The notes beneath the pieces were generated by a model. The model made no database searches. It had not been told where the DNA came from and saw only the letters and a list, made by a program, of their open reading frames with translations. A stretch of DNA of 64,000 nucleotides from Clusia tigrina. Taxonomy: Eukaryota > Arthropoda > Insecta > Diptera > Clusiidae. The stretch is from assembly GCA_920105625.2 (NCBI GenBank), contig OV050030.1:410703034-410767033 (forward strand), written 5' to 3'. Shown here piece by piece: positions 7,181 to 42,639 of the stretch; the first letter of the stretch is position 1; each line of letters opens with the position of its first letter. A program made the translations under genes and the position numbers.

Positions 7181-7613
7181 TGTTCACTCCGAATCCTAAC
7201 GTTCAGGTGGCTTCCGCCTGGTACCTGGGGCACCATGTTTTCGGTCTATCTCTGCGTTCCATCGTTCGGTACGGTGCGAAAGCACGTGTTGTGCGGTGGA
7301 GAGCGAGAGAACAGTCGAGGCAGGTGCATATCGTATTTGTGCGGAAGCCATCTTTATCTGCTGGCATATTTTGGCGCGGGGCTACGAAGCAGCGGCAGCT
7401 GCTCTCTTTGCGCGGTGGTCAGTCTGTTCTGGAATTGCGGCAAGTGTGGATCGGCGCCCAACATAGTATATTAAATATAAATTATACAATAAATATATAA
7501 AAAGTGAAAATTGGCTAAGGAATGCTGCTGCGTATTTTTCGTTTAACGTGGTTTTCATAAGTTAATAAATAAATATTTTTTAATCAAATAAATAGTTCTA
7601 TCTGAGTGCAACA
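7181..7613 (+). repeat. 5' LTR of the BEL element
   Basis: This 433-bp LTR begins TGTTCACTCC and ends GAGTGCAACA (TG...CA). It holds the promoter and polyadenylation signals. An AATAAA lies at 7488-7493 inside an AT-rich block (7465-7500) that also contains TATA-like strings, so the exact start and poly(A) sites cannot be read off. The first 280 bp are unusually GC-rich, and two overlapping frames stay open across it. These same ORFs recur in the 3' LTR and are a by-product of composition, not genes. Confidence 0.96.
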
Positions 7614-7616
7614 TTT

Positions 7617-7634
7617 TGGTCCTTCGAGCCGGAT
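7617..7634 (+). promoter_or_regulatory. Primer binding site, complementary to tRNA-Tyr 3' end
   Basis: Three bases after the LTR comes TGGTCCTTCGAGCCGGAT. This is the reverse complement of ATCCGGCTCGAAGGA plus the added CCA, which is the 3' end of insect tRNA-Tyr as I recall it. All 18 bases pair and complementarity stops at the next base. It primes minus-strand cDNA synthesis. The tRNA identity is from memory and should be checked against a tRNA set. Confidence 0.82.
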
Positions 7635-7650
7635 AAGAATCCGGTTTTTG

Positions 7651-7656
7651 GTAAGT
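7651..7656 (+). promoter_or_regulatory. Candidate splice donor in BEL leader
   Basis: TTTTTG|GTAAGTG, 37 bases after the 5' LTR and 16 after the primer site, matches the eukaryotic 5' splice-site consensus over GTAAGT. Candidate leader acceptors are at about 7850 (pyrimidine-rich, TTTTTAG) and about 7942 (TTTTGTGAAGCAG). A further one lies after pol at 13476-13477. Use in vivo is inferred only. Confidence 0.45.
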
Positions 7657-8097
7657 GTCGATTGTTTTAATCGAATTAAAAATATTATTATTATAAATTA
7701 ACAATAATTTAAATTTGATTATACACAAATTGATTATTTTTTGTGTTTCGGTTGGGTTTGCCGTGCGTTCGGGTGTTTGTGCTCTGTCGGCGCTGCTGAC
7801 TATTGAAACCATTGCGCTGTTGTTGTCTTCGCTGCATTATCGCCGTTTTTAGGTACTGGTGGCTAATGCAGAAAGCAGAATAAGAAAAGTAGGTCAGTGG
7901 CTCGTGCGATCAGCTGCTGTCTCTATTTCTTTTGTGAAGCAGGGCCGGTTACAGCAATTGGTTTCCTGAACATTGTGGGCCCTTCTGTCGCAGTGCGTTT
8001 AAACGATAAGTGTTGGGCGTGGTTTCAGTGCGGTTGCGTTCGGAGGTGCATATAAGCCAATATTGAGCTGCGTTCGCAAGCGCATAAGTTCCGCAAA

Positions 8098-11000
8098 ATG
8101 GTGGACTCGTATATTTCGGCGGCAGATGAACTTCTGATGTTCATAAGTCGTTTTGAACGGTGCTCGCCGGAAAGTCACTCCATTATATCACTTCAACTTG
8201 ATGAAGCAGAATTGGATGCTCGGTGGGCTTCGCTTAAAACGGCAAAAATAACTGCCATGTCCGAGGCGCGGGTCATGAAAGACGGTGAATCACTGTTAGA
8301 GTCAATCGGACAGCGGTTCGAGTCAAGTTTTGATACTTTTAAGCGGGGTCGTATTTTGATCGCGGAAGTGAGACAACGTTTAGAGCAGGCAACTCCCGTT
8401 CCTACTACAGGGGAGCCATTTTTATCATTGACGCACAGCATCCACGTACCCCCTTGTGATATCCCTGCCTTTGAAGGGAGTTATGCTGCATGGCCCACGT
8501 TCCGTGACATGTTTACAGCACTATTCATTAACAACACGCGGCTGTCTAATGCGGAGAAATTCTACCATTTGTCCCTTAAGACCCGGGGAGAACCACATGA
8601 AATTGTCTCCAAAATTCCAATTACTGAGGCGGGTTTTCAGCAAGTGTGGGAAAACTTACTGGAGCGCTACGACAACAAGCGCATCCAGATCAACAACCAA
8701 TTGAAGACACTGTTGGGTCTTGACCCGGTTAGAAGAGAAGATGGTGGGGAAATTAAACGCCTACAGCGTGACATTGGTAACTGTATCGCTGCACTGACAT
8801 CTTACGGCATCGACGTTGCGAGTTGGGATGCCATTTTAGTATACTTGTGCTCCATGCGGCTGCCTGAGCTCACACTGTCCCTGTGGGAACAAACCATGGG
8901 GGGCCGCGCAGATATTCCAGAATGGAAGGCGATGGATGACTTCTTGTCATTGCGGTTTCACACACTCGAGGCGATTTCGGATCTCCGGTCGCAAGGCTCC
9001 ATTTCATCACAAATAAGGGTTCAGCCGAATCAACCGCGAACAGCACGGGTGCAAACCCATCCAGTAAGTGTTACCCCGGAAGGGTGCAAAGTGTGCAGGC
9101 GGTCTACACACTCGGTGCGAAATTGTCCTGCGTTCCAGGCCGCCACCGTATCAGCTCGGTGGGGCTTGGTGCGCAAACACGGGTTGTGTGTGAATTGCTT
9201 GTCAGCTTCACATAGAGTGGCAAATTGCCCCAGCTCCTTTTCGTGCTCCACCTGTCGGGAGCGGCACCACACTCTGCTGCATACGGACTCGCCACGGGGT
9301 CGTCCAACCGCTGCGACGCCAAACCCACCATCCACATCGGGGAGGGGACGCTCCAATTCAAATGGACGCTCCTCCCTGGTCCATCCACCCGTACCCAAGT
9401 CTTCTTACCACACTGCGCAGGTATCGCGTCCGGCAGATAGGGCGGGGCCGAGTCCAAGTCATCCAAGTGGCCGCCTCTCCAATCGTGTTATCTTGGGTAC
9501 GGCCTTAGTCACGATAAAACATCAAGGAGTATGGTACACAGCCCGGGCTCTGATAGATTCTGGTTCTGAGGGGTCCTTTGTTTCGGACCGCCTCCAAAAG
9601 CGCCTTAAGCTGCCGGCGCACTCAGTACATGCCCAGGTATCGGGGGTCAGCAATACCCTTGCTGGCACCGTTACCAAAGCATGTCATATCACCATCGGGT
9701 CGCGGTACGATGCCACTGTGCGTCTCCAAGTATCGGCTTTGGTGTTGCCTACCCTGACAGGTGAACTGCCGCCGCTCCTATTGAGTAAAGGAGAGCAACA
9801 CAAACTGAGACATTTCAGGTTAGCCGATTCAAGCACTTCACACTCCACCCAAGTAGATTTGTTAATCGGAGGGGATCTTTACCCTCAGGTCTTGCTTGAT
9901 GGGTTGCGGCGCAACGTGGTGGGGTCACTGATTGCCCAAGAAACGGTATTCGGCTGGATCCTTACTGGGCCTCTGCCGGATACACGGATATCCACTTTCA
10001 CAACTCGCGTGCAAGTGTCTGAAACTGCTTCGCTCGACCACCTTCTACGACAGTTCTGGGAAATGGAACAGCCTCCGCAAGATCGAAAGCTGTCCCAGAC
10101 TGATCAAGACTGCCTTAATTTGTACTCCCAGACTACTCGTCGGGATGCTACGGGGCGATACATAGTCTCTCTGCCGTTCAAACAAGGGTTTGTTCCGGAG
10201 ACGTCTCTAGGAGCGTCGCGCTATATTGCCCTTCGGCAATTTGAGCGCAATGAGTCCCGGCTGGTAAAGAGCCCGGCCGATAAGCGACAATACGACGCGG
10301 TGGTACTTGAATACGTGACGTTAAATCACATGCGCAAGGTTCCACCGCCGTCAGTAACTCCTGTGCCTCATTATTACTTGCCACATCATGCAGTAATTAA
10401 GCCAGAGAGTACAACCACCAAACTTCGCGTGGTGTTCAATGCCTCACAGGCGACTTCCAACACGGTCAGCTTGAATGACGTGTTACACACAGGGCCAGTG
10501 TTACAAGCCGATCTGACCCGGCTAATAATCCAGTGGCGTATGTTTCGCTATGTCCTGAACGGGGACATACAAAAGATGTACCGTCAGATTCTGGTTGAGC
10601 CAAGCCAGGCTTCATACCAGAGAATTGTGTTTAGGGAATCTCCCGACAGCGATATCTCTGACTATGAATTGAAAACGGTCACCTTCGGGGTGAATTGTGC
10701 TCCTTATCTTGCAATAAGGACACTTTTGCAATTGGCAGACGACATGGAGAGCAGGTTCCCATTGGCTTCTCAGGTGCTACGTAATTCGATGTACGTGGAT
10801 GACGCTCTAGTGGGTACACATGATATTGCTACTGCCATTCGCACCAGGGATGAGCTGATTGAGAGCTTGGATTCAGCCGGGTTCTCAATGCGAAAGTGGG
10901 CAGCAAATTCTACAGAAATTTTATCCGGTTTGCCTCCAGGGCATCTGCTTAGGGAAGATTTTCTCCAGTTCGAGGAGACCAGCACCACTCGCACTTTGGG

Positions 11001-13386
11001 TATTCGATGGAATGCGCGGGGGGATTGGTTTTATTTCCACGTGGCAGCTTTGCCAATCGTTGCCGTATACACCAAACGTAAGGTCCTGTCGGTCATCGCA
11101 CAGCTGTTTGACCCAGCGGGATGGTTGGCTCCTATTGTCATCTCCGCTAAGATCTTGATGCAACAGATATGGCTGGATCAAATAGGTTGGGACGAGCAAC
11201 TTACTCCTACCACTTTAACAAGGTGGACACACTTCTTATCGCAGTATCAGGCAATCTCCCAAGTACGCGTGCCTCGCTGGGTACGATCTGCACCTGATCG
11301 CGATATTGAGTTCCACGCCTTCTGTGATGCTTCTCAGCTAGCATATGCTGCAGCCCTTTACGTTCGGTGTAAAGGTGACAATTCCATCTCTACCCATTTG
11401 CTAGTGGCGAAATCGCGGGTGGCCCCATTGAGAACTATCTCTCTTCCACGTTTAGAACTATGTGGGGCAACACTTTTAGCAGAGCTGATTTTCCCTCTCA
11501 AACCTCTATTAAATATTTCAGATGACAACTTGTTTTGTTGGTCCGACTCTACGATTGTGTTGGCATGGCTGCGAAAGCCACCCCACGTGTGGAAAGTCTT
11601 CGTGGCGAATCGAGTCACTGCTATTACCAGCAAAGTAGGTGTGAACAACTGGCGTCATGTCCGCTCAGAAGATAACCCAGCAGATTTAGCTAGCCGTGGT
11701 GTGGCACCTGATGCACTACTCCACAACAGGCTCTGGTGGGAAGGCCCGGCCTGGCTGCAGCAGGAGCGGAAACGGTGGCCGCCTCCGTTGGACGAAAACG
11801 TGTTAGCAACCGATGAAGAGCAACGACCTGCAAAGTGTCATGTAGTATATGTGTCCTCTGCGGACGACCCAATGTTGCGCTTCTCCTCATTTTCTAGGGC
11901 CCTCCGAGTGTTGAGTTTCGTACGCCGCTTTATGCGCCACTGTTCGGTGAAACATCGGGACACGACTCCTGACAGGGGGTCCCCGCTTACTCGGGGAGAA
12001 ATCACTGAATCGACCACTTGCCTTATTGTGCTCGCGCAGAAAATGTATTTCCCAAAAGAATACAGCGCACTTGTGGCACGGGAGCCGATATCCAGCTCCA
12101 GTTCGCTTTTGGCTCTGAATCCGTTCGTGCACTCCGATGGTACTCTGCGCGTAAATGGTCGGTTGGCGCTCACTACACATTTGCCATTTTCGGAGAGACA
12201 CCCGATCATTCTGCCATACTATGGTCATTTGACTCGTCTGATAGTGAAGTTCATCCATCAGGTGTCCCTACACGGGGGGAATCAACTAATGTTGCGGCTA
12301 ATCCGGACCCAATATTGGATTCCAAAAGTGAAAACGCTCATTAAAAGCACAATTCTCCAATGTAAGACATGTATTCTGTGGAAGAAGCGTCGACAACAGC
12401 AGCTCATGGCAGCTCTTCCGGTTGAACGTACCACGTGTTCACGTCCTTTTACCCATACTGGAGTTGATTTCGCGGGGCCGTTTGATATCAAGCACTATAA
12501 GGGGCGGGCATGCCACGTTACGAAGGGGTACGTCTGCATCTTTGTATGCTTCGCTACGAGAGCAGTTCACCTTGAGGCGACTACCGATTTGAGTACTCCT
12601 GCCTTCCTTGCGGCATTGTCTCGGTTTATCGCCCGCCGGGGATGTCCTTTGAAAATGCACTCGGATAATGGTCGGAACTTTGTGGGCGCGGAAAAGGCGT
12701 TGAGGCTTGATTTCCAGCGGGTGCTCCGCGAAATCCGTGACCGAACCGTGGTGGGTCACTTTCATACTCAGATCGAGTGGGATTTTAATCCCCCCCATGC
12801 TCCACATATGGGGGGCCTTTGGGAAGCAGCGGTCAAGAGTTTCAAGTACCATTTCAAACGCATGGCAGGGCAACTTAAGTACACGTTTGAAGAATTTGTG
12901 ACTCTCTTAGCGCGCATCGAGGCGTGTCTTAATTCTAGGCCTATCAGCGCTCTGTCGGAGGACCCCACGGATCTCCAAGCGCTGACGCCTGGTCATTTCT
13001 TGGTGGGTGCGCCACTGTTGGCACCAGCTGAGCCTCCGGATACAACACCCTTTCTCTCAATTTTGAACCGATGGCAAAAACTGAAGGCGCTGGCCCATCA
13101 ATTCAGCGTCAGGTGGAAAAACGAATACCTTCTCGAGTGTCAACGGCGGAGTAAGTGGCGAACGGCTCAAGTGAATGTCAAGGTGGGTGAGTTAGTGGTT
13201 GTGCGGGAAGACAACCTAGCGCCTCAAGAATGGCGGCTGGGCAGGGTCACCGATACGCACCCTGGTCCTGACGGAAAAGAGCGTGTTGTGGATGTGCGGA
13301 CCGCACGTGGAATGCTAACCCGACCTATCACGAAGGTGGTGATCCTACCGGGAGAAGAGCCGCCTCCTACCAGCGGAGGGGTATAA
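8098..13386 (+). CDS. BEL/Pao Gag-Pol polyprotein (1762 aa)
   Basis: This frame encodes all proteins for retrotransposition of the BEL element. Domains in order: Gag with a DUF1759-like block (about residues 115-270); zinc knuckles starting at C330 (CKVC...HSVRNC) and C364 (CVNC...HRVANC) with a third CSTC motif; A17-type aspartic protease with D487-S-G; reverse transcriptase (about 700-960) with RVVFNAS at 777-783 and the catalytic Y899-V-D901-D902; RNase H with D1077, E1120, D1150 and D1196; HHCC integrase zinc finger (H1387, H1392, C1422, C1425); integrase core D1457, D1523, E1576; and a DUF5641-like C-terminal region (about 1660-1755). All catalytic residues are present and there is no stop or frameshift. 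The ATG at 8098 is the first in frame with Gag and has a purine at -3 (AAAATGG). The length is typical for Pao/BEL. It is translated as a single frame, so processing relies on its own protease. Confidence 0.96.
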   Translation: MVDSYISAADELLMFISRFERCSPESHSIISLQLDEAELDARWASLKTAKITAMSEARVMKDGESLLESIGQRFESSFDTFKRGRILIAEVRQRLEQATPVPTTGEPFLSLTHSIHVPPCDIPAFEGSYAAWPTFRDMFTALFINNTRLSNAEKFYHLSLKTRGEPHEIVSKIPITEAGFQQVWENLLERYDNKRIQINNQLKTLLGLDPVRREDGGEIKRLQRDIGNCIAALTSYGIDVASWDAILVYLCSMRLPELTLSLWEQTMGGRADIPEWKAMDDFLSLRFHTLEAISDLRSQGSISSQIRVQPNQPRTARVQTHPVSVTPEGCKVCRRSTHSVRNCPAFQAATVSARWGLVRKHGLCVNCLSASHRVANCPSSFSCSTCRERHHTLLHTDSPRGRPTAATPNPPSTSGRGRSNSNGRSSLVHPPVPKSSYHTAQVSRPADRAGPSPSHPSGRLSNRVILGTALVTIKHQGVWYTARALIDSGSEGSFVSDRLQKRLKLPAHSVHAQVSGVSNTLAGTVTKACHITIGSRYDATVRLQVSALVLPTLTGELPPLLLSKGEQHKLRHFRLADSSTSHSTQVDLLIGGDLYPQVLLDGLRRNVVGSLIAQETVFGWILTGPLPDTRISTFTTRVQVSETASLDHLLRQFWEMEQPPQDRKLSQTDQDCLNLYSQTTRRDATGRYIVSLPFKQGFVPETSLGASRYIALRQFERNESRLVKSPADKRQYDAVVLEYVTLNHMRKVPPPSVTPVPHYYLPHHAVIKPESTTTKLRVVFNASQATSNTVSLNDVLHTGPVLQADLTRLIIQWRMFRYVLNGDIQKMYRQILVEPSQASYQRIVFRESPDSDISDYELKTVTFGVNCAPYLAIRTLLQLADDMESRFPLASQVLRNSMYVDDALVGTHDIATAIRTRDELIESLDSAGFSMRKWAANSTEILSGLPPGHLLREDFLQFEETSTTRTLGIRWNARGDWFYFHVAALPIVAVYTKRKVLSVIAQLFDPAGWLAPIVISAKILMQQIWLDQIGWDEQLTPTTLTRWTHFLSQYQAISQVRVPRWVRSAPDRDIEFHAFCDASQLAYAAALYVRCKGDNSISTHLLVAKSRVAPLRTISLPRLELCGATLLAELIFPLKPLLNISDDNLFCWSDSTIVLAWLRKPPHVWKVFVANRVTAITSKVGVNNWRHVRSEDNPADLASRGVAPDALLHNRLWWEGPAWLQQERKRWPPPLDENVLATDEEQRPAKCHVVYVSSADDPMLRFSSFSRALRVLSFVRRFMRHCSVKHRDTTPDRGSPLTRGEITESTTCLIVLAQKMYFPKEYSALVAREPISSSSSLLALNPFVHSDGTLRVNGRLALTTHLPFSERHPIILPYYGHLTRLIVKFIHQVSLHGGNQLMLRLIRTQYWIPKVKTLIKSTILQCKTCILWKKRRQQQLMAALPVERTTCSRPFTHTGVDFAGPFDIKHYKGRACHVTKGYVCIFVCFATRAVHLEATTDLSTPAFLAALSRFIARRGCPLKMHSDNGRNFVGAEKALRLDFQRVLREIRDRTVVGHFHTQIEWDFNPPHAPHMGGLWEAAVKSFKYHFKRMAGQLKYTFEEFVTLLARIEACLNSRPISALSEDPTDLQALTPGHFLVGAPLLAPAEPPDTTPFLSILNRWQKLKALAHQFSVRWKNEYLLECQRRSKWRTAQVNVKVGELVVVREDNLAPQEWRLGRVTDTHPGPDGKERVVDVRTARGMLTRPITKVVILPGEEPPPTSGGV

Positions 13387-13953
13387 CGGACCTTGTACTT
13401 CTTTAATTTATAGTTTCTATGTTTTCTTTTATATCTACTCCCTTCTTGTACTAATTAAATTTTTGATATTTTCTCAGATTTCGGCCCGCGCGGTGCACAA
13501 GACCCGCTACTCGCTTTCTGACGGATGCTGCTTTTTGTCTGCCAGTTGTTCGAGTGTGTCCATGCTACCACCTCCACTCTCCATGGCGGTGCCACCGGAC
13601 CCAACAGCACCTCGTCGGGCCAGGTCAACTAAATTCGACTTCCCATCGAGCTCCACCTCTCTATTACCGGCGCGCCACCTGGCTGCGTGGTTCCGAAAGC
13701 GCCAAACCAAGGGCAGGAAGAGACCAGGCGGTAACCATCCCGCGCTGTTCCGCCCTTTCTGGGTATTACGAAGAGACCGGTGCAGCTACGCCCTACTCCG
13801 CAGATCATCTGCACTATGTGTTAGCAGATGGGCCACCGCATTGAGGGGTGCGCATGCTTCCTGAAGTTGCGCCCTCGGGCACCAAACCACCCTCCATTGA
13901 TGAAGGGTATGAACGGGATCCGGCGTGGATATGTTCTTCTCTTGCAATAATGC
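13387..13953 (+). other. BEL 3' untranslated region with possible accessory ORF
   Basis: About 570 bp separate the pol stop from the polypurine tract. The first 90 bp are T-rich and end in a splice-acceptor-like sequence. The rest (13478-13950) is GC-rich and open in several frames: 13562-13864 gives a basic 100-residue proline- and arginine-rich product, 13554-13844 overlaps it in another frame, and 13507-13710 is open on the opposite strand. No transmembrane or envelope-like features are seen. I cannot tell which frame, if any, is used. Confidence 0.4.
13449..13477 (+). promoter_or_regulatory. Candidate branch point and splice acceptor after pol
   Basis: TACTAAT (13449-13455) is followed by a T-rich tract and TTTTCTCAG, with AG at 13476-13477. 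Branch-to-AG spacing of about 23 nt is ideal. It lies 90 bases after the polyprotein stop and could join the leader donor at 7651 to a 3' exon starting at 13478. This is a sequence match only. Confidence 0.45.
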
Positions 13954-13966
13954 AAGGGGGGCGGCA
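13954..13966 (+). promoter_or_regulatory. Polypurine tract of the BEL element
   Basis: AAGGGGGGCGGCA ends exactly where the 3' LTR begins. It is the expected plus-strand primer site, purine-rich except for two cytosines. Confidence 0.8.
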
Positions 13967-14399
13967 TGTTCACTCCGAATCCTAACGTTCAGGTGGCTTC
14001 CGCCTGGTACCTGGGGCACCATGTTTTCGGTCTATCTCTGCGTTCCATCGTTCGGTACGGTGCGAAAGCACGTGTTGTGCGGTGGAGAGCGAGAGAACAG
14101 TCGAGGCAGGTGCATATCGTATTTGTGCGGAAGCCATCTTTATCTGCTGGCATATTTTGGCGCGGGGCTACGAAGCAGCGGCAGCTGCTCTCTTTGCGCG
14201 GTGGTCAGTCTGTTCTGGAATTGCGGCAAGTGTGGATCGGCGCCCAACATAGTATATTAAATATAAATTATACAATAAATATATAAAAAGTGAAAATTGG
14301 CTAAGGAATGCTGCTGCGTATTTTTCGTTTAACGTGGTTTTCATAAGTTAATAAATAAATATTTTTTAATCAAATAAATAGTTCTATCTGAGTGCAACA
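13967..14399 (+). repeat. 3' LTR of the BEL element
   Basis: It is 433 bp, with the same ends and, by eye, the same sequence as the 5' LTR at a constant offset of 6786. The CATTT duplication follows at 14400-14404. The AATAAA at 14274-14279 would direct polyadenylation of the genomic RNA. Confidence 0.96.
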
Positions 14400-16959: not shown

Positions 16960-17487
16960 CTTTCAGCATGGAACCATTCGATTCGTTTCTATTATATCGT
17001 CCTATGGCTCCGCGGGGGAGCAAAGGGCCGCAACAAGGTTCATCCATTTCCCTCTGTCATGCGCCAACCTATTGATTTGTCTCCAGGTTTTGTTGGTGCT
17101 GAATACGCAACTTCCAGATTTCCCCTACAGGTCAGTGATGGCCTACCTGTGCGACGGCTGCCTTGAGGGTTCCAGTCGATTCCGCTGCGGGTGATGTCTT
17201 TTTGGTCTCTTCTTAACACGTGCCCGAGCCAGCCCCATTTCCTTTTCAAGATTTCCAGGCGCATTTGTGTCTGGTTACAGCGATTCCACAGGTCAGTGTT
17301 TGAGATCGTATCGGGCCAGAAAATTCTCAATATTTTACGGAGACAACGATGCATGAAAACCTGCAGCGTTGGTAGGTCAGAGGCTGCAAGGTTCCAGGTT
17401 TCGCAACCGTACATAAGATTGGACTTCACGATGGAGTTAAATATTTTTATTTTTGTGCGCCGTGTGATGATCGTGGGGTTCCACACA
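16960..17487 (-). mobile_element. RTE-like LINE 3' end
   Basis: An open minus-strand frame (17486-17040, 148 codons) encodes the extreme C-terminus of an RTE-type endonuclease-RT protein. It contains IFNSIVKSNLMYGCETW, FMHRCLRKILRI, then WGWLGHVLRRD and DWNPQGSRRTGRPSLTC. These motifs (LYGCETW, GWLGHVLR, ALDWNPQGKR-like) are characteristic. The reading continues with RMTEGNG and then decays towards 16960. The RT core is absent, so it is a 5'-truncated insertion. It is the best-preserved LINE ORF fragment in the window, apart from the R1-like one. Confidence 0.8.
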
Positions 17488-17639
17488 GTGTTTCATGTTC
17501 CACGTTCGTTTCTAGCGAATATCTAATGTTATATTCAAGCACAATTTGATTTAATTCTAAACGCCGTTCTTTTGAGTTGGTTCAAATGTTGCTTTGTACT
17601 GACAACCGTATCGAAGAATTCATTCAATTCGTTCGTACT

Positions 17640-17860: not shown

Positions 17861-20755
17861 TGGACTCTTCGTACTAAATATATTACCTATAATTTCACTG
17901 GATATAAGTCCTATAGCAAGAAATTTCCTACTCAAAACCATCAAGGAAATTTATCAAGGTTTATATGCGTACATTTAATTTATCATTGGAATTACTAAAA
18001 GAAAGATTCTTTCTTTGTAGACGATTATTACTTATTTTAAATTTGTTCATCCTGGTTTTTGGTTATGATTTCTTTAAATAACTCAAATTCATCGTAACCC
18101 ACAACTTTCAGAAGTAATCCAAAAAGTACTCCACTTATTTACCTTTAAAGCATTTGCATTCCCTTAATACGCATTTCTTCTTCTTTCAAAGGGTAACAAA
18201 AATTTGCGCAGATATTTTCATGCAAGATAAACTTTAAATCTCTTTAACATGTACAATCACAATATGCGACTGCAAGCAATTTTCCATTGTTTTGCATGGC
18301 TTACTTGTAAGCTCTTTCTATATCCCCCTATGCCCGTCTCCACTGCACACCCAATGGACCAATTTAGAATTTGAGAGCTGTGCTTAGAGATCTCATAGTA
18401 TGAAAGTAAAATTTATCTTTATAAAATCTTTACGACCACTCCCTTACATAAGCACATGTCAAAGTTTCGTATTAAGGGATTCGTTGCTTGTGTCAGCAAC
18501 TACGAGTATTACCATTTTTGATGCACTATGCATTGGCGATACTTAACTCTCTCTCTCTAGTGAGGGGTCCACCCCCCTTAAACACACTCCACTTATAAAG
18601 CAGCAGTTATTGTGGACGACTATAGTGCCGAAAAGAGCACAACAACCATAACAAAAAGAACAACAAGAAAAACAGCAAGACAACAACAATTGCAATTGCA
18701 AAGCTGTAGCAGCCACAGCAGAGCAGCAACACAATGTTTCGGTACTCTGCCGCATAGCCAGGGCCCATAAATACGTACTCTGAAGAGTTACTGCAGATTG
18801 CAGACATGCCAGGCCACCACATGTCGTGCTGGCACTACAAATGGAGCGAGTTTATTAAATGATATTCCTTACGACTGTTTTGCTCCACACTTCTGAAGGA
18901 TATTGTTGTTTGCCACTGCCAGGACGGGGGACTGTAAAAATTGAGCAAAATATTGCAGCTTAGACATACTGAGGAAATTATTAGCTTCTAAACTGGCATG
19001 AATTTATACACAGTGTGAGTGATGCAGGAAATTATGCAGTTTATGCCATGCCACATACCCAAGTATGCGCTGCTGGAGCACATCAAAAGAACGCCAACTT
19101 GAGTCTTTGGCCAGCTTAAAGGATTGTGTATTGTAGTGCACTCAACGTTTAAGGAAAATTGTGTAAATTTGTTCTTTGTCTATACTAACTTTTCTGAATG
19201 CTCTTCTGGGATATCACAGAACTAGTCGTAAAATCAAACAAGGATTAATTCCACAATTACAGCTTCATAGAACAATGCTTGAACTCAAAAAGAAATGCAA
19301 TTAGAGGATGCTAAGGTATATTAAAGAGTCGGCGGGGTATTGTTCTATTCTCCTTCTTTAGTTGGGTGCCTATTATAGGTAATATGTTAATTATTAACCT
19401 TAAGTAATGAGTTAAATATTTAATTTGTCCTTGATTTGGGTTCAGTAAGTGAATTTCGAAACGAATCTCTTTACATTTGAATCTACAGAGGTCTTCTTCA
19501 AGATGTCCCTGGATACGTTCCGAAATGTCTCTACTACTCATCCGTGCTTAATATATCAATCTTATGAAGATGATGCTCTGATCATGTTGAAGGGCTCACT
19601 ATGTATTCAAAAAAACATTAGATATCTTCGATTCCTATCCCCATTACACTGGCACTTCATGTCATATGAGAGTGAATTTTTTCAGTACCTTCAAATTGCA
19701 TTTCTTTACTCCAAAGCTGAGATGAGCCGCTATTACGACGCATTAAAGCAGTTGATTCATTTAATTTATACAAATTTTAGTTTCTTTTTCTCAATGCTGG
19801 TGTTTCTCTAACGTGTCCCTGACAGTCGTGGCAGTTCCGTTTCCATTTTACTGATGTTATATTTGTAATTTACTTTATTGCATAAGTTGAAAATTTTTCA
19901 AAAATTTTGTTCGTGAATAATACAAAGGAACCCATCACTTCGCTGCTGTGCTCTCACGCACCACTTCACTTTACTATAGAATAGCAAATATCCGCAAGTA
20001 TACATCATAAACTATCCGCAGTGTGTGAAATGCACTCTCACACACGCACACAAGAATATACTTCAGTGTATTCCTAACACACACACACTGACTCATATGC
20101 ACATGCAAGCGCATGCATGTAATTAGTCTCATCCACAGTAATTGCCAACGTGACTGACATGCGGTAGAAGGAAGGCGCAGCAGCAGGGAAGCGTGTGAAG
20201 CATGTCACGTAACTAATTTCAAAAAGCACATTTCAACACCTGCGCCATACGATGCGGCTTTCTGCAATTTTTGTTTTCAATATTTGCTTTTCCCTTTCTG
20301 TATTGCTCTTATTTTTTATTTGTTGGTTTCATTTTTTATTTTATTTTTGCGAAGCCATAAAAAAGGACTCCTTCAATATACGTCAATGGTGCACAGTGGG
20401 CTAAACTTCCAATATAACTCACAGAAATCTGAGATTATATAAGACTGCACGCGTCCATCGATCGCAGTGAAAAGTAAAATGAAATTCCATTCATATGTTG
20501 GTAATTTTTTGGATAGAAAGAATGTACAGATAATCAGACAGACATGGCTACAGTCAGTGAGGAAGCGACGCTGTTCCAGAATATATTTCAACGCGTCCTT
20601 TGGGGCATTATTCCAAATTCGCTCAAATTTACGTGTATTATATCCTATTCACCTTTACCATAAATAGATAAAAAGTAAAGAGTGAGACAAATGAGAGGTT
20701 TGCATAAGGAGGTGTGGTAGGTATTGACATATAAATATAGATAAAATAATCATAT
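17861..20755. other. Gene-poor DNA with CAA/CAG-rich microsatellite
   Basis: A CAACAACAAG/CAGCAGC-type low-complexity block lies at 18630-18735, and CA-rich DNA near 20030-20090. The frame at 19449-19811 (+, 120 codons) has no recognisable domain and overlaps an antisense frame. It is probably chance, or an eroded repeat. Confidence 0.4.
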
Positions 20756-21280
20756 TGTTACGAAATTTCCCTCCTGACAATTTATACTGTTACGAAATTG
20801 CCCTTTTGAATATTTACTCTAACTCTCAATACTCGGATTCGTATTACTGGAATGTGTAGTTATCAAACAATCGCTAGTTAAATTAAAATAATTAACTTTA
20901 TTTAAATATTACACACTTAATATTAGCCTTAAAGTTTACTTTATTACAATTTGCACTTTATTTAACAATTCAATTAATCACTTTATTACTTATTAATACT
21001 GTAACTGCTGCACGTGAAATGCACGACGTAAACACTGTCACGATTTCTGCTCAACTGCGTGTCGACTTTAATTGTGTGGTGGCTTATATACATTTCTTAT
21101 GGTTGAAGTAGAACAGTCTAGAACATTCCCTACGAATTCCCGAATTTTATTTACACATCGAAAGAGGGTTCTTTAGTAAGCTTTTTTCCGACTATATTGT
21201 GTCTTGACTTATATCCAACTCTCTCGTAGTAACTGAACTTAATAGAGATATCCTAAAAGTATGCAATCATTTACGTTTCA
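20756..21280 (-). repeat. Gypsy-type solo LTR, copy A
   Basis: This 525-bp TG...CA unit is flanked by ATAT (20752-20755 and 21281-21284), the 4-bp duplication expected of Ty3/Gypsy integration. On the minus strand it has TATATAAG (near 21090) followed about 30 nt later by a GCAGTTG initiator-like string, and several AATAAA signals beyond it, so transcription would run leftward. The left end carries a 32-bp tandem duplication starting TGTTACGAAATT. No internal gag-pol lies beside it, so it is a recombination relic. Copies B and C are relatives. Confidence 0.82.
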
Positions 21281-23876: not shown

Positions 23877-24004
23877 CGGTACATTTCACAATGATTTCCC
23901 ACCTCTCTTGAAAAGATTCATAAGTAAATAGAATTTGTGGATTTTAAGTGTACTTAAAGCAGTATTAGGGTGAGAAGGTATGTTGATCAATTTTGCATCT
24001 AATC

Positions 24005-24180
24005 TAATGGAAAGTATGCTGGCCTTAGAGTCATTGGGTCGCGGTTTCCAATTCTGCTAAAGGAATGGTCTGAAAAATTTGGGTTCTACGAGCAATAGTT
24101 TTTCTTCCGAGTCGAAAGCTCAAGTTAATAGAACACATTCCTCGAAGCCCCTTGCAGCATAAGGTATAATAAAAAATAGA
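24005..24180 (+). repeat. tRNA-derived SINE, copy 1
   Basis: TGGCCTTAGAG near 24018 resembles a pol III A box, and CGGTTTCCAATTCTGC about 30 bp later an altered B box. A body follows, containing AATGGTCTGAAAAA, then TTCCGAGTCGAAAGCTCAAG, CCCCTTGCAG and a short AATAAAAAATAG tail. The body aligns with minus-strand copies at 29.7 and 42.7 kb, which is what defines the family. The head is degenerate, so this copy is unlikely to be transcribed. Confidence 0.6.
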
Positions 24181-24190
24181 ATGTTCCATA

Positions 24191-24478
24191 ATTTTAGAGT
24201 TTTTTTTCCTCCTTTGGGAGACGTAAAATCCTCATGGAGACCAGCAGGCTCCTGCCGCGCTGGTACTTTGGGACTCCTCCGAAGAGGCCTCCGCCACTAA
24301 AATCGTCTCCTTTCCATCAACATCCCCTCGGATAACGCTCTGTAAAGCAGGTGTCGAGGTCGGGCGCTATGCTGCCTCTACTATTCTGCCGCATCCATGC
24401 GACTTTCTCTAGTTTGTAACGACTCTTTTCTATAGCTGGGGTAAAACTCAGCGGCTCCAGGGGTCGTATACAGAAAAA
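24191..24478 (-). other. GC-rich block ending in poly(A) on the minus strand
   Basis: A sharply GC-rich island holds a coding-like but unassigned minus-strand sequence (for example LFGGVPKYQRG). On the minus strand it finishes CCAAAGGAGG followed by eight As, which suggests a retroposed 3' end, possibly of a LINE. I could not match it to a known protein. Confidence 0.35.
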
Positions 24479-24650
24479 TATAAAATCCTGTGTGTTAAAT
24501 TAATTTCAACGTATTTATTTAGTGTATTGATTATGGACTCTTGTTAGTCCTTGCTCAAAACAATACTACTTCCTTAACTCTATACAAATCAACTTGCTTA
24601 GTGTATACTTGTTTGCCTGTCTCTACGTCCCGGTAAGTATGTGTCTCTGT

Positions 24651-24695
24651 GATTCAGTGGGAGAACGATTAAAAACCAGAGGCTCTCACTGAATC
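24651..24695. repeat. Hairpin H1, unit 1
   Basis: A 13-bp stem (arms 24651-24663 and 24683-24695, one G-T pair) with a 19-nt loop at 24664-24682. It is repeated at 24794-24838 and 24937-24981. Confidence 0.9.
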
Positions 24696-24717
24696 CCTGT
24701 AGTCTCTGCCTGTGTAT

Positions 24718-24762
24718 AGCTTAGCAAGAAAACGATTAAAAACCAGAGGTTCTTGCTAAGCT
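24718..24762. repeat. Hairpin H2, unit 1
   Basis: A perfect 13-bp stem (arms 24718-24730 and 24750-24762) over the same 19-nt loop (24731-24749) as H1. It is repeated at 24861-24905 and 25004-25048, where the outer pairs have begun to erode. Confidence 0.9.
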
Positions 24763-25048
24763 TTCTAAGTCTCGGTTGCGTATGTGTCTCAGTGATTCAG
24801 TGGGAGAACGATTAAAAACCAGAGGCTCTCACTGAATCCCTGTAGTCTCTGCCTGTGTATGGCTTAGCAAGAAAACGATTAAAAACCAGAGGTTCTTGCT
24901 AAGCTTCCTAAGTCTCGGTTGCGTATGTGTCTCAGTGATTCAGTGGGAGAACGATTAAAAACCAGAGGCTCTCACTGAATCCCTGTAGTCTCTGTCTGTG
25001 TATGACTTAGCAAGAAAACGATTAAAAACCAGAGGTTCTTGCTAAGCT

Positions 25049-25783
25049 TTTTATGTTCGTATGGTACTTTGTAGAGCTGTTGCTAGTCAGGATGCTGGTG
25101 TCCGAAGAAGAGACCTACTGCCTGGGCTACGTGGTTTATATAGTCCCAGGTCGCAGCGGCGGACACATGTTGTTGTTCGCAGGCCACCGTTGTGTGATTT
25201 TACTTCCGTTGGCCAGTAGTCGATTGTTGTTGTTGTGGCAGGCTTGTTGTTGTTGCAGTCAGGCTTGTTGGTGTTGCCGTCTTTTGCCCTTGGGCCACCT
25301 TCAACTTCTGGCGGTCAGCCACCTCACTCCAACGGTCCCTGGTTAGCCTGCAGTATTGTTGCCTGCCAGCAGCGCTGTCCGGAATCCTATAGTGTTGTTG
25401 TTGTTAATATTTAATAACCAGCATTTCCCTCTTGTGCTTTGTACTTGCCGGCCGTTGGCGTGGTGGTGGTTCTGTCGTTGTCCGTCTTGTGCTTCGCTCT
25501 CGTTTCTTCGTGTTGTTGGTGTAAGATTTCCGAGCGAGCGCACTCGGTAAATTCCACCGCTGAGTTCGTGCACTCACCTTCTCTTGTCCGGCATGTATTT
25601 GTTGTATTCCTCGTCGCTGCGTTTTTCCTCGCTCTTTGCAAGCATAGCGCTGATTGGCAAGATCGTTGGCTGTGCGTGAGGTTGCTTTTGTTGTAATCCT
25701 AGTTATTATTCCAACTGGTCTAATATGCTGCTACTGATCTGCGCTCCTACCACGGCCGCGCTAATTGGTTACAATGCTTGTAG
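25049..25783. other. Promoter-like, TTG-rich flank of the hairpin array
   Basis: The sequence is GC-richer than its surroundings and contains GTTGTTG-type runs (25200-25285) and short internal repeats around GGCTTGTTG. ACTATATAAACC on the minus strand (25133-25146) is a plausible TATA box driving transcription leftward through the hairpin array, towards an AATAAA at about 24508. TGTAACCAATTAGC on the minus strand, starting near 25774, could be an LTR 5' end. The overlapping ORFs here (25053-25346, 25343-25696) show no domain. An LTR identity for 24.5-25.77 kb is only a hypothesis. Confidence 0.35.
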
Positions 25784-26515
25784 TTTTTTTTTCGTTAAAT
25801 TTCTAATGCAGTTGCTTCGGTTCGGGTATTTTATCGTGATGTCTGTGTGTATATAGTTTCGTGGCGACTCTGTCATTTGTAGTGTGGGCCAAAATTTCCC
25901 GCAGAAGATTTTGGTTCTTACAAGTTTTAGTTGCGTCGATTCTTTCTTGCATACTTAGATCTTTTAGTACTTCTTCTGCATATCTTTGGAACGCCTTCCA
26001 ATTGCTATCTGATGAAGTAACTGCTTCGATAAAGTTAGTGATTGTGAGATGGGTCCCAGTCACTGCCTGCAATATCCACCGATTCGCATCGAACCTTGGA
26101 CAGTCGTAGATTATGTGTTCTGCATCTTCACTCACGCGGCACGTCGGACACAGCGGGTCTTCCACAATATTGAATCGATTCAAGTAGTGGCGAAAGCACC
26201 CATGGCCTGAAATGAGGTGCTTGGTGTAGAAGTCTGGGCACGCAAAGTCATTCTTGTACCACAATTTGATATCTGGTATGAGTTTATGGGTCCATCTACA
26301 CATGTCCGTCTCATCTCATTGTCTTTGCCACTTGCGCATCATCTGCTCTGTGGACTCTTCTATTTCCGCTGTCGTTGGTCTTTCACAATGTGTTTTATAT
26401 AGTTGACCCAATCTCTCCCCCCTCATTGCAACCGGCGGCTTTTTCGCTATTACCGCAGCGGCCTCATCCGACACAGTTCTATATGCAGATAAGATTAAGG
26501 GAGTGTTCGTTTCCG
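25784..26515 (-). mobile_element. R1-clade LINE, 5'-truncated 3' end with poly(A)
   Basis: A single minus-strand frame starts near 26500 with LSAYRTVSDEAAAVIAKKPPV, the R1-clade signature after the RT. It continues through a TGA at 26316-26318 into RWTHKLIPDI, LISGHGCFRHYLNRF, and the C-terminal zinc knuckle CPTCR...EDAEHIIYDCPRF. It ends at 25803 and is followed within about 20 bp by nine As (25784-25792 on the minus strand). Apart from the one stop, about 240 codons are intact, so the insertion is fairly young. Everything upstream of the post-RT region is missing. It is not in rDNA, so this is either a non-site-specific relative or a stray insertion. Confidence 0.88.
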
Positions 26516-29044
26516 AAATCTAATGATCCTCATCTTGTAACGCCGTCTGTGGGCTGGTATAAATTCCTTCCTTGGCAGACTTATATGTTTGGAATGATAT
26601 TTCTATGGAGGATGTTTTTGATAGAATTTTTGTTTAATATGTTTAACGGGTAATAATAGGTGGGTTGATCAAAAACTAGCCTCACTCTGTTTTATATAAT
26701 TACAAAGATTTTTGAATTTACGTGTAAATTTCCTTGATTACATCTTTTCTAACACTTAATCCATAAATGTGCTATTTGCCTTTAAATGGACCTCTGAAAA
26801 GTCTATAAAAGTCCCCTCAATAATATCTAGTTTGGTGAGTGAGGAAAATCTTAACTGGTAATATCTGGTAAACCATCAAATAGAGCAAAACTATTGTTTG
26901 CCAATTTAATTGCTCAAAGCATTACCCATGCATTTTGCCTCATGGAACTGAATACGTTTTGACTGATCCTATCTTCTGAAGCATTTCTCTATGCAATCGA
27001 TTCATGAATTTTATACCATGTAATCTTGTTTGCTGTATTGACTTTTAATGTTTGGACTTTGTCTGGTCACAGTTGTAAGTAAACTTCATCTTAGACGGCA
27101 GAAATGAAAAATACGGAAATGGTTGCCATTGAAACTTCACATATTTACTTTCACAGACAAAAACACAGCTCAAAGAAGAGTGCATGCATTTAGAATTTTA
27201 AATGGAAAGGTCAAACAAACTAAACACTGCACTCAAGATATTATCCTACTGATCTTGTGAATATTTCAACGCCGCAGATTTACCAATTTCCCTTCTACTG
27301 TTCTTTTCCATTCTCCCTCATCCCTCTTCTTACTCACTCCTCAACTCGTATACACTTCATGATGCGTTTGTGAATTTGCGGGCATTTATTTACTGCTGCG
27401 CTTGTATGATTTGCACAAATGCTGCAAACAACATTGCAAACAGACATCAATCTTATCATCAGCATATGTGCTTCAATACACGAGTTTCTCTCTCTGAGTG
27501 TGTGTAGGGAAGACTAGGTTTGGTTGAGAGTGAGGGTGTGTATGTGTGTATAGCGAATACTTAGTTCCCTGGTGCTGATTTGCATGCAATAGCATGGGAA
27601 TATTTGCAGCTATTTTTAGTTTAATTTGAAACTGAAATCAAGTCGTAACGTAGCATGTTGCAAATCGAATGCTTCAGGAATTTTAAATGCATGCGGCATC
27701 GCCGTCAGCATCAGCGGAAGGATATGAGATTGCGGAAAAGCTTTCATTACTTAGGTTTCCAGTTTTGCTCAATGCTCTTATTTGTACCTAGAATTGGAGT
27801 TGAAATTCTTTACTTTCCTAGCAGCGCTTTCCAAATATTTACTCTTTGTTTAAAAAAACCGAAGAATTGCTCAACTTTCTGCCATGAATAAGCAACTTGC
27901 AATTTTTCTTCCCATGTTTGTTTGGTTTGTTTTTTTTTTTTTTGTTGTTTTTCCTTCCCACATATACACATGCATATTCATGCATGACTCGTAGGCGTGT
28001 GTGTGTGCATATATAATTGGAATTTTATACATATCTCAAATATTCAGTGATTTCCTTCCAAACAACTCAACTGAGTGTAAATTGTTTTCACATTTTATTT
28101 TAATGTTACTCGTACCAAAGATTTTTCTCTACATTTTATTCTAGAATTTCTCCGGCAACTTTTATGCCATTTATTTCTTGGTTGGTTATTGGCACCAATG
28201 TGCAAAAATATACAATCTGAGTATATTTTTAGAACGTTAAATTACCTGCTGCATGCAGTGAAGCGCAGCTTGGCATCATCCAGCACTGTATGTGACGTAC
28301 TTCTATGATAAAAATATATGTGATAGGAGTGTGTCTACCTTTATTTTAGGTTCATTAATTAAATATAAATTTATATATGTAGCAAATATAAATTCAGTAC
28401 TGACATGAAGAACAAGTAGCAGTGAAAATGCTGAAATCGTGTACGCATGAAATTTCGCACAACTCTTTCGTCTGAGAGTTTGACTGAAAATATCTAGAGA
28501 TATCATTCTGTAGTTGTATAAACTAACCGTCAGTATTATATCACATAAAGAACGTTCACAATAGAGATGGATGCAGAACCGTGCCGGAACATTTCAATTT
28601 ACAAAATTTGTTAGCCTTAATGTCAAAAGTTTATGTTGGTATTAAATTTGTCTATAACAAAATATCATAGAAATATTTTCTTCAGTGTGGGACCTGCAGA
28701 ATTCGGATATAATAGGAAGATTATTTTATTTACATATTCAGTGAAGATTATTTTATTTACATGTTCCATACAGACTAAATCACCATTGAAACACACCTGA
28801 GAACACCAGAAAGACACCTTCAATAAGTATCCAGAGGGAACTTGTTCAACTATATATATTGTTTGTTGCTAGGTTTATAGTTACAGGGTAAAACTATGCC
28901 AAGCTTATAATAAAGAATTTAGATAATAAAGTATTTTTAGTCACAGGCTAAAAGTATGCTAGGATTATAATAAGGAATATAACTTTTCTAACATGTTACA
29001 GTTGATATTTTATGTTCTTTAATACAAAAAATTACATAATATAT
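26516..29044. other. AT-rich DNA, local duplications near the right end
   Basis: No gene is seen. A T-run lies at 27932-27943. Two local duplications lie at 28716-28765 (GAAGATTATTTTATTTACAT twice) and 28870-28980 (a roughly 48-bp block around TTATAATAAAGAAT, twice with divergence). Confidence 0.4.
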
Positions 29045-29640
29045 TGTTTCGAAATTGCTCTCCTGACAATTTATATTTCAAGGAAATTGCCCTCCTGACA
29101 ATTTATTTTAACTCTCAATACTCGAATTCATACCACTGGATTGTGTAGCAGTCAAACAATCGCTGGTTAAATTAAAATATTTAACTTTATTTAATTATTG
29201 CAATTTACACACTTAATATTAGGCTTAAAGTTTACTTTATTAAAATTTGCACATTATTAAATAATTCATTAATCACTTTATTACTTCTTAATTACAATTA
29301 CAAATGTTACTGTGCACGATGTACACATTGTTACGATTTCTGCTCAACTACGTCTCGACTTTAATTGTGTGGTGGCTTATATACCTTCCGAATGTTTGCC
29401 TTAGAAAATTCTAGAATATTCCCTACGCTATAAAAGAAGTTTCTGCAATATTCTCAAATCTTATCTACACTTATCGAAGCTTATCTCTCGAATATTATCT
29501 ACACAATAAAATAACTTTCAAGAGGGTTTTTAAATAAGCTTTTTTTCCAAATATATCGTGTCTTGACTTATATACACCTGTCTCGTTGTGAACTGCACTT
29601 AATAGAGGTACCCTAAAAGTATGTAATCATTTATGTTTCA
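29045..29640 (-). repeat. Gypsy-type solo LTR, copy B
   Basis: This 596-bp relative of copy A has TG...CA ends and ATAT on both sides (29041-29044, 29641-29644). It keeps the 32-bp tandem duplication at the left end and the minus-strand TATA (GTATATAAGCC near 29380). It carries an extra block around 29430-29500 rich in TTATCTACAC that copy A lacks. The right end abuts the TAA-rich tail of a SINE, so it probably inserted into that tail. Confidence 0.82.
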
Positions 29641-36009: not shown

Positions 36010-37283
36010 CGAGGGCAGATTGATATTGAAGCTACCTAAGAAGGAAAAAAACTTTTTTTTTCAAAAACCATTTATTTCTCAACATAGTCTCCTTTTACTT
36101 CGACACACTTAGTAAGACGATATTCCAACTTTTTTATACCATCTGAATAATACGATTTCGGGAACCCCTCAAAATACGCGTTAGTTTCGGTAATCACTTC
36201 TTCGTTTGAGATGAATTTTTTTCCTGCGAACCATTTTTTCAAGTCTGGAAACAGGAAAAAGTCACTAGGAGCTAAATCTGGACTATAAGGTGGATGATTA
36301 ACCAATTCGAAGTGTATGTCACGTAATTTTAGCATCGTATCTAATGCTGTGTGAACCGGTGCGTTGTCTTGAAGAAAGAGCATTTTTTTCCTCTTTAAAT
36401 GTGGTCGTTTTTCCTTGATTGCATCAATGAATTTATCCAATAATGCACGATAATACTTTCCTGTGATTGTGGATCCTTTTTCAAGCTAGTCGATGAGCAA
36501 TATTCCGTGTGCATCCCAGAATACAGTGGCCATAACCTTGACAGCCGATTTCACTGGCTTCGCCTTCTTCGGAGCACTTCCACCAGCTTCCACCCATCTT
36601 TCGATTGATTTTTGGTTTCAGGTGTGTAGTGGTGGACCCACGTTTCATCAACAGTCATTAATCGACGCCAAAAATCAACAGGATTACGCTTTATCATGTC
36701 CAAACACCGCTGTGAACTCGTTTTTGTTCGACACTGAGCAAACGCGGCACCCATCTTGCCGATAGCTTTTTCATATGCAAATGTTCATGCAAAATGTTGA
36801 ATACACGTTCATATGATATGTTTACCATTTCAACAATCTCAAGCAACTTGACTCGGCGATCATTCATAACGATATCGAGGATTTTCTTGATATTTTCTTC
36901 AGTAACCACCTCTTTTGGCCTTCCTGTTGATGGTATTGTTGCAGTGCTTGATCGGCCGCGCTTAAATTCAGCAATCCAATATTTTACCATGTAATCTGAC
37001 GGAGCAGACTCACCGTAATGTTTATCGAGCTTTTCTTTTGTCTCTTTCGCCGTTTTCCCTTACAAATAATAGTGTTTAATCACTGCGCGAAATTCGCTTT
37101 TTTCCATTTTTCAAGAAACACAAAAGTTGCTTACTTCAAACGACTACAACAAATAAACTAATCGATGAATTTGGGTGAAATTTTAACAGCTGACGTTTGA
37201 CAGATCGCAATTTCTAAAAAAAAAAGTGTTTGTGTTTGTGCTGCCATCTAGCGCTAGTTAGCTTCAATATCAATCCGCCCTCG
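36010..37283 (-). mobile_element. Mariner element with near-intact ends, broken transposase
   Basis: This 1274-bp element is flanked by TA (36008-36009, 37284-37285). The terminal inverted repeats begin CGAGGGC and continue GATTGATATTGAAGCTA, matching at 24 of 25 positions. The D34D transposase runs on the minus strand from ATG at 37105-37107. It has an N-terminal HTH region (LLEIVEMVNISYERVFNIL), the WVPRLL linker, first D in VDETWVHH, second D in FLQDNAPVHT, third D in SPDLAPSDFF, and stop at 36072. It is disabled by a TAA at 37060-37062 (codon 16), a frameshift near 36740, and more shifts between about 36440 and 36560. The terminal repeats are far better preserved than the gene, so the ends could still be mobilised in trans. 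Confidence 0.93.
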
Positions 37284-42156: not shown

Positions 42157-42409
42157 ATATTTCGTTGCTCTCCGCTCTTTATGTGTTTTTCGCAGCAAAG
42201 CAGCTGATTTTATCAACAAATAATTAAACAAAAATTATTTTGTTTGTACTTACTGGCACTGTTCACACGCACAACTTCTGTAGAACTTTATTTTATTGAT
42301 GCGCACAGCGCTTTTTATACTAACTTAAGGCTTTGAAATTCATTTTAAATGATCAGTCATTTTGCTTTGATTACTTTACTTCACACCTGTATGAAAGCTG
42401 TCTATATAT

Positions 42410-42538
42410 TGTTACGAAACTGCCCTCTTGACAATTTATTCTGTTACGAAATTGCCCTCCAGACAATTTACTCTAACTCTCTGTACTCGGATTCGTACCA
42501 CTAGATGTAGTCACGTTTCATTATGCAATCACGTTTCA
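42410..42538 (-). repeat. Gypsy-type solo LTR, copy C (internally deleted)
   Basis: It is 129 bp, with the same ends as copies A and B and ATAT on both sides (42406-42409, 42539-42542). It retains the 32-bp terminal tandem duplication and the first part up to ACTCGGATTCGTACCAC, then jumps to the other terminus. The promoter region is lost. Confidence 0.8.
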
Positions 42539-42639
42539 ATATATATACATACTATATAATGTAATGACGACCAACTTTCATGTTTTTAGCAATGTTTAAC
42601 ATTCTGATATTTAACAAAATCTTGATTTTTTAAACTGAA

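Follow-up and report, generated by a model that had tools for sequence, protein, structure and literature searches.

The question raised by this locus is why a short stretch of an insect genome should repeatedly present one and the same loop on stems that differ from each other. In the window, that is, the whole 64-kb stretch of DNA analysed in this work, a preliminary description had noted three 143-bp units with six hairpins and six identical 19-nt loops, and independent searches for repeats, loops and arms found exactly this arrangement. The array and its hairpins are located as follows:

24637..25050, minus strand: tandem array of three 143-bp units, in sense order H2-H1 three times (repeat and arm search)
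25004..25048, minus strand: hairpin H2 of unit 3 (arm pairing around the loop)
24937..24981, minus strand: hairpin H1 of unit 3 (arm pairing around the loop)
24861..24905, minus strand: hairpin H2 of unit 2 (arm pairing around the loop)
24794..24838, minus strand: hairpin H1 of unit 2 (arm pairing around the loop)
24718..24762, minus strand: hairpin H2 of unit 1, with 13 of 13 pairs (arm pairing around the loop)
24651..24695, minus strand: hairpin H1 of unit 1 (arm pairing around the loop)

A tandem-repeat scan assigned the array a period of 143, 2.9 copies and 97% matches. The six exact copies of the 19-nt loop, AACGATTAAAAACCAGAGG, all lie within it, and no further copy with up to 3 mismatches was found elsewhere in the window, against a chance expectation of 0.00. 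Each stem had been described as complementary to its own partner arm, and the 13-bp arms, which are 19 nt apart, were indeed found to be complementary to 100% in H2 of unit 1 and to 92% in H1. Perfect arms of at least 12 that enclose a loop of 10-30 nt occur in the 64-kb window only in the H2 hairpins of units 1 and 2, and 20 shuffles of the window contained a mean of 0.1 such structures. The search for decayed further units outside the array edges gave a signal not above that of shuffles. There was no Rfam 15 match at the gathering score in the window and none up to an E value of 5 in 23900-26600, and neither a ribozyme nor another described RNA was thus found for the array.

The two stem types had been considered unrelated in sequence, a view that the comparison of the stems does not sustain. 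With the loop as anchor, 8 of the 13 pairs differ between H1 and H2 (7 two-sided, 1 one-sided), corresponding to 8 positions in the 5' arm and 7 in the 3' arm; because every one of these differences is a transition, the two stems are relatives, the probability that two random 13-mers of the window have their purine/pyrimidine pattern in common being 1.1e-4. Intermediate stems in other copies in the genome connect the H1-type with the H2-type. In a gapped alignment of H1 and H2, the stem has 7 transitions and 2 transversions, and its contrast with the spacer is not significant (P 0.27). Since the units are near copies of each other, the window array represents only two independent hairpins, H1 and H2, and covariation counts from its six rows, which amount to two types, are not independent figures.

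Information on the home of the array comes from its surroundings, in which the following features were identified:

24415..25922, minus strand: solo long terminal repeat (LTR) of the Ty3/gypsy type, TGTAAG...GTTACA, 1508 bp (termini, target-site duplication (TSD), alignment to other copies)
25923..25926, minus strand: TSD AACT, 5' copy (LTR bracket search)
24411..24414, minus strand: TSD AACT, 3' copy (LTR bracket search)
25135..25142, minus strand: TATA box TATATAAA, presumed promoter, marking the presumed start of R (motif)
24514..24519, minus strand: AATAAA, presumed poly(A) signal near the presumed end of R (motif)
25927..26315, minus strand: LINE-like (non-LTR) C-terminal frame piece, interrupted by the LTR (frame; zf-RVT below threshold, E 0.051)
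24200..24410, minus strand: remainder of the LINE-like insert, ending in A8 at 24200-24207 (sequence)

The search for LTR-like brackets returned one with 5-base inverted ends and a 4-bp duplication, 25922-24415; a bracket of that quality arose in 5.6% of 1000 shuffles. When the flanks of the LTR are joined, the LINE-like frame continues and closes with two stop codons. We take the interrupted frame piece to be LINE-like and R1-like; no relatives of it were found in the protein collection, the viral contigs or the bacterial contigs, and the comparison with the PDB returned a single chain at E 0.84. As a partner LTR is absent within the window, the LTR is considered a solo LTR. An alternative start at 25773 (TGTAAC) was rejected, since it has no TSD and other copies begin at 25922, and the 3' UTR of the LINE was rejected as the home of the array because the copies elsewhere align to the LTR and form flanking pairs. 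Read on the minus strand, the TATA box precedes the array and the AATAAA follows it. A TATA-type motif was present within 330 nt upstream in 38 of 41 array sides, and in 34 of these its distance to the first loop is 105-112 nt; within 330 nt downstream, AATAAA was present in 34 of 41. Provided that these signals are used, the array would lie within the R region of the LTR.

Several other elements are present in the window. These comprise a near-intact BEL/Pao element at 7181-14266 (plus strand), with 300-bp direct repeats that are 100% identical and a 1776-aa ORF that contains Peptidase_A17, DUF1759 and Integrase_H2C2, the reverse transcriptase and the integrase core being below the Pfam cut-offs; mariner-type transposase fragments at 36072-37059 (minus strand; DDE_3, E 2.1e-07; HTH_48, E 2.1e-04); a diverged repeat family at 20745-21134, 29041-29427 and 42406-42567, which starts with TGTTACGAAATTGCCCTCC or similar; and an ORF piece at 17040-17492 (minus strand) with DUF6451 (E 1.7e-06), which by eye resembles LINE-like C-terminal sequence. 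The BEL/Pao, mariner-like and LINE-like sequences near the array point to an insect host, perhaps a fly.

The 1.214-Gb genome was searched for the loop with up to 2 mismatches, using the reversed loop as a control. This resulted in 1794 + 2072 = 3866 matches, as compared to 7 + 8 = 15 for the control. From the matches listed, 39 regions were taken, all of which are within the first 91 Mb of contig 1. In all 39, one flank or, mostly, both can be aligned to the window LTR; locus L019 aligns unbroken to positions 1-1508 of this query, and other copies reach both ends piecewise. It is because of these flank alignments that the LTR is regarded as the home of the array. A second sample was obtained with the perfect stem of L034 and L037 as query, which was found in 34 places, 13 of them with a different loop of the CATCAGGTTTTCAATCG type. 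Each of the 20 regions taken from this sample has at least one alignable LTR flank, as do all 59 regions examined in total, all of which had been picked by loop or stem. This choice of loci by an exact loop or an exact H3-type stem biases the counts of loops and of H3, but not those of the other stems.

It had been proposed that a genome-wide search should reveal the loop on varied but paired stems, and hairpins were indeed present in 39 of 39 regions among the matches listed. At least 9 of 13 pairs are formed in 200 of the 204 loop matches of these loci and the window; the four with fewer pairs, which were left out, are one in L038 that lies outside the array and three in rearranged arrays (two of L043, one of L048). 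Also left out were 16 of the 76 rows of the stem sample, namely, 15 in which fewer than 9 pairs form and a row of L054 with 9 pairs; by eye, all of them are off the arrays. A bacterial loop match (L001) lacks pairing arms and was dismissed as a chance match. A frequent array order in sense is H2-H1-H3-H1c, as against the three H2-H1 pairs of the window subfamily, and other arrays hold 3 to 6 hairpins. The loop had been called invariant, which holds for the window array, whereas in the family it measures 19-20 nt and has variants. Twelve of the 20 regions picked by stem seem to belong to a sister LTR family, in which the array is built alike; the identity of this family to the window LTR is about 66-79% over most of the aligned U3 side, with short pieces of up to 91%, and 2 of the 12 loci (L049 and L056) have no U3 match. 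In this sister family (L049-L060), several loci alternate stems at 67 and 101 nt, and the loop is of the CATCAGGTTTTCAATCG type.

Copies with paired LTRs provide information on the element to which the array belongs. The two LTRs are 99.1% identical over 1385 in L016, 100% over 1536 in L019, 98.4% over 1397 in L020, 99.3% over 1449 in L025 and 99.5% over 1445 in L029. TSDs were identified in L016 (ACAT) and L019 (GCAT), in addition to the AACT of the window solo LTR, and inspection of the L020 flanks revealed no matching duplication. A TGGCGCCCGAGCAGGGAC-type sequence, presumably the primer-binding site for a lysine tRNA, follows the LTR in L020 and is present as the reverse complement in L016 and L019. 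In L020, the one pol-bearing copy scanned, aspartic protease, reverse transcriptase, RNase H and the integrase zinc domain scored above the Pfam cut-offs and gag below (20.2 of 24.1 bits), and no match to the integrase core was found in its open pieces. Across these pieces the domain order is gag-protease-reverse transcriptase-RNase H-integrase. Judged by its LTR pairs, TG...CA ends, short TSD, domain order and sequence resembling a primer-binding site, the element is of the Ty3/gypsy type. The ORF after the integrase (L020:6053-7267), located where env could be expected, matches Peptidase_C48 (E 2.9e-26), that is, the Ulp1 protease family; Ginger1 and Mutator transposons contain Ulp1 domains as well (PMC2836005).

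Derivatives that hold only gag and protease were also observed, with near-identical LTRs, at L019:2534-4867 (by Pfam) and L016:2328-4799 (minus strand, by eye). That of L019 is a single ORF of 777 aa with gag and protease only, in which gag exceeds the Pfam cut-off, and its identical LTRs suggest that it moved recently. By eye, the C-terminus in L019 and L016 resembles the end of the Ulp1 ORF of L020, which would fit a deletion of pol together with most of the Ulp1 ORF. In L025, three LTRs at a spacing of about 3849 bp form a tandem of the type LTR-internal-LTR-internal-LTR.

The genome copies permitted the covariation analysis that the preliminary description had called for. The tree comprised the 13 stem classes that occur in 3 or more loci. 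Between these classes 22 pairs change, and 9 of the changes are two-sided; a tree built blind to pairing also gave 9. Permutation of positions produced a mean of 2.3 two-sided changes (P 5e-5), and 0-3 were obtained when the partner was slid by 1-3. The events are few, about 9 independent ones, and 8 of the 9 retain a standard pair. In H2, stepwise series were found at pair 8 (T-A, T-G, C-G) and pair 9 (G-C, G-T, A-T), and wobble intermediates exist in 3 loci for pair 8 and in 5 loci for pair 3. When read by loop orientation, 33 matches in the genome have a sense G-U at pair 9 and 1 has a sense A-C; 24 of the 33 have one identical 20-nt loop and are probably one subfamily. The early proposal of a retroelement leader or UTR element in which pairing matters is thus in agreement with an array that is in an LTR and has covarying stems, and the opposing possibility, an ordinary LTR part devoid of stem covariation, is correct as to the LTR but not as to the stems.

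Further measurements bear on constraint. An apparently slower change in stem and loop (0.4-1.3% in the H1 arms and loop, as against 4-5% in spacers) was dropped from the argument because the H1 hairpins had been chosen by their own loop and stem. With hairpins anchored by their neighbours, the arms (0.059-0.063) and the loop (0.074) of H3 and H1c are equal to the spacer (0.061), and the H2 arms (0.062-0.072) to theirs (0.069), the H2 loop being lower at 0.037. Since arms and loops, except the H2 loop, vary like spacers, most of the variation is considered decay in dead copies, and covariation is the one line of evidence that speaks for constraint.

Based on these data, the array is probably, though by no means certainly, a cis-acting structured element in the LTR R region of an abundant, recently active Ty3/gypsy-type retrotransposon. 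At each of its two ends, an LTR transcript would then have two to six hairpins, and every hairpin would offer a similar single-stranded loop of 19-20 nt, supported by a 13-bp stem, to a common ligand, for which the Gag of the element itself or a host factor for RNA binding or export is the most likely candidate. Pairing would be all that the stem needs, so that it could drift via wobble intermediates; repetition would raise avidity, and recombination would vary the number of units. Candidate steps that may be served are packaging or dimerisation, export and strand transfer. A common loop on stems that drift while remaining paired is the pattern that most likely indicates a protein-docking RNA element. 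A more specific version, put forward tentatively, is a multivalent RNA array in which one repeated hairpin module with a shared docking loop for Gag or a host export factor serves as a tandem amplifier for packaging or export; the compensating transitions might make neighbouring stems less able to mispair, and the array would be kept by gag-only derivatives that lack pol.

The main rival, which we consider unlikely, is an element that acts at the DNA level, namely, protein-binding or insulator/enhancer sites in which the 19-bp core is the site and the inverted arms form a cruciform or half-sites. It holds this position because related Drosophila leader repeats are read as DNA sites: in insect LTR elements, tandem repeats of the leader are reported to function as insulators and to be bound by DNA-binding proteins (PMC8872304, PMC5408687), with an insulator, HP1a and RpL22 as examples (PMC8872304). 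The words "hairpin" and "stem" do not occur in PMC8872304, nor do "hairpin" and "stem-loop" in PMC5408687. The distribution of wobbles is compatible with DNA-level action in that the intermediates are split between sense and antisense G-U, as if neither RNA strand were favoured. In younger classes, H1 is fixed for a sense A-C at pair 10, which reads as G-U on the opposite strand. H2 and one H1c class likewise have a sense A-C at their terminal pair, whereas sense G-U intermediates are found at pairs 3, 8, 9 and 2 of H2. Of 2600 cells, 182 are sense A-C and 24 sense G-U, an excess that does not favour sense RNA. The search for a pattern with a pyrimidine-purine closing pair gave 0 matches, although decay alone would rarely yield such a pair. 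Less favourable to the preferred reading, the two strands of the R region were predicted to fold only moderately better than shuffled sequence (z -3.06 and -2.30), the signal was weak for stretches of one or two hairpins (z -0.8 to -3.3), and in the minimum-energy fold of the R region some hairpins pair otherwise. Against a site in duplex DNA speaks that it does not need 13-bp arms that drift in matched pairs across a 19-nt gap.

The two-sided changes between classes could also arise without selection, if hairpin-templated repair or template switching by reverse transcriptase copied one arm to the other and so kept imperfect palindromes matched, a possibility to which we attach a low probability. 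Short inverted repeats are known substrates for hairpin-templated correction. Among the 38 single-locus stems that are at most 2 bases from a class, a limit within which a clean two-sided change would fall, 0 of 50 changed pairs were two-sided; the difference from the classes (9 of 22; Fisher P 5.8e-6) disfavours a routine joint rewriting of the arms. The 14 single-locus stems that are more than 2 bases from a class are closer to what arm-copying would produce, with 10 two-sided changes besides 38 one-sided ones. One and the same pair-5 change, in variants of a single older stem, accounts for five of the 10, so that these variants are probably one older class. When all single-locus variants are pooled, 10 of 98 changes are two-sided, a figure that still differs from the 9 of 22 between classes (Fisher P 0.0014); five stems found in two loci were outside both counts. 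The ratio of transitions to transversions is 17:1 in the two-sided class changes and 35:15 in the near single-locus changes, which also argues against arm-copying. Rewriting as a regular process, which had been suggested at the outset, thus finds weak support at most, but rare arm-copying may be restricted to the replicating lineage. Pairing was probably kept either by selection on that lineage or by such a rare process there. The least probable explanation, and a very improbable one, is a source of small RNAs, in which hairpins are diced or the array feeds siRNA or piRNA silencing of the element, since the 13-bp hairpins and thousands of loop copies that recommend it come with no Rfam match, with stems that are short for known insect Dicer substrates and with a shared loop left without a reason.

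For the preferred reading as a structured RNA element, links to several known systems emerge, and no description of this array layout was found among the matches listed in the open-licence literature. The MPMV-type constitutive transport element has identical repeated loops on variable stems at which one host protein docks; the array is alike in its repeated loops on variable stems but differs in location. TAR-type and HTLV/BLV-type retroviral R regions have one or few unrelated stem-loops. The array would resemble these in having stem-loops in the presumed R and then at both RNA ends, whereas it repeats a single hairpin module with a shared loop, upstream of the AATAAA. As regards a retroviral-type R stem-loop element, covarying stems are present, the signal being weaker against all single-locus variants. 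The third ORF of Errantivirus is env, in contrast to the Peptidase_C48 ORF that is the last in L020, the one copy concerned. The LTR ends of Errantivirus (ZAM/Tirant group), which has three ORFs, are AGT/AnT (PMC5408687), as opposed to TGT...ACA here, so that the element departs from Errantivirus on both counts. In longer retroviral R regions, residual conservation was linked to stem-loops (PMC3601003). Stem-loops in the leaders of Ty1/Ty3 and retroviruses are needed in cis for RNA packaging or dimerisation (PMC4974528, PMC5454406); by eye, the array has no palindromic kissing loop of more than 4 nt. The leader repeats of the insect Ty3/gypsy elements gypsy, ZAM, Idefix and Tirant are likewise in tandem and variable in copy number (102 bp in 2-6 copies in Tirant, 307 bp in 2.3 copies in ZAM; PMC5408687). 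They are in the 5' UTR outside the LTR, whereas the present array is inside the LTR, in the presumed R.

Judging from the 3866 loop matches and about three loops per LTR, the array is estimated to be present in roughly a thousand LTR copies. The usual interpretation of leader repeats in insect LTR elements is that of DNA regulatory sites; in the present array, matched changes in the two arms are a hallmark of a folded nucleic acid. The copies preserve the intermediate steps, so that compensatory evolution can be followed as a natural record within a single genome. As a possible signal for packaging, export or strand transfer in an animal Ty3/gypsy element, the array is a candidate that can be put to the test.
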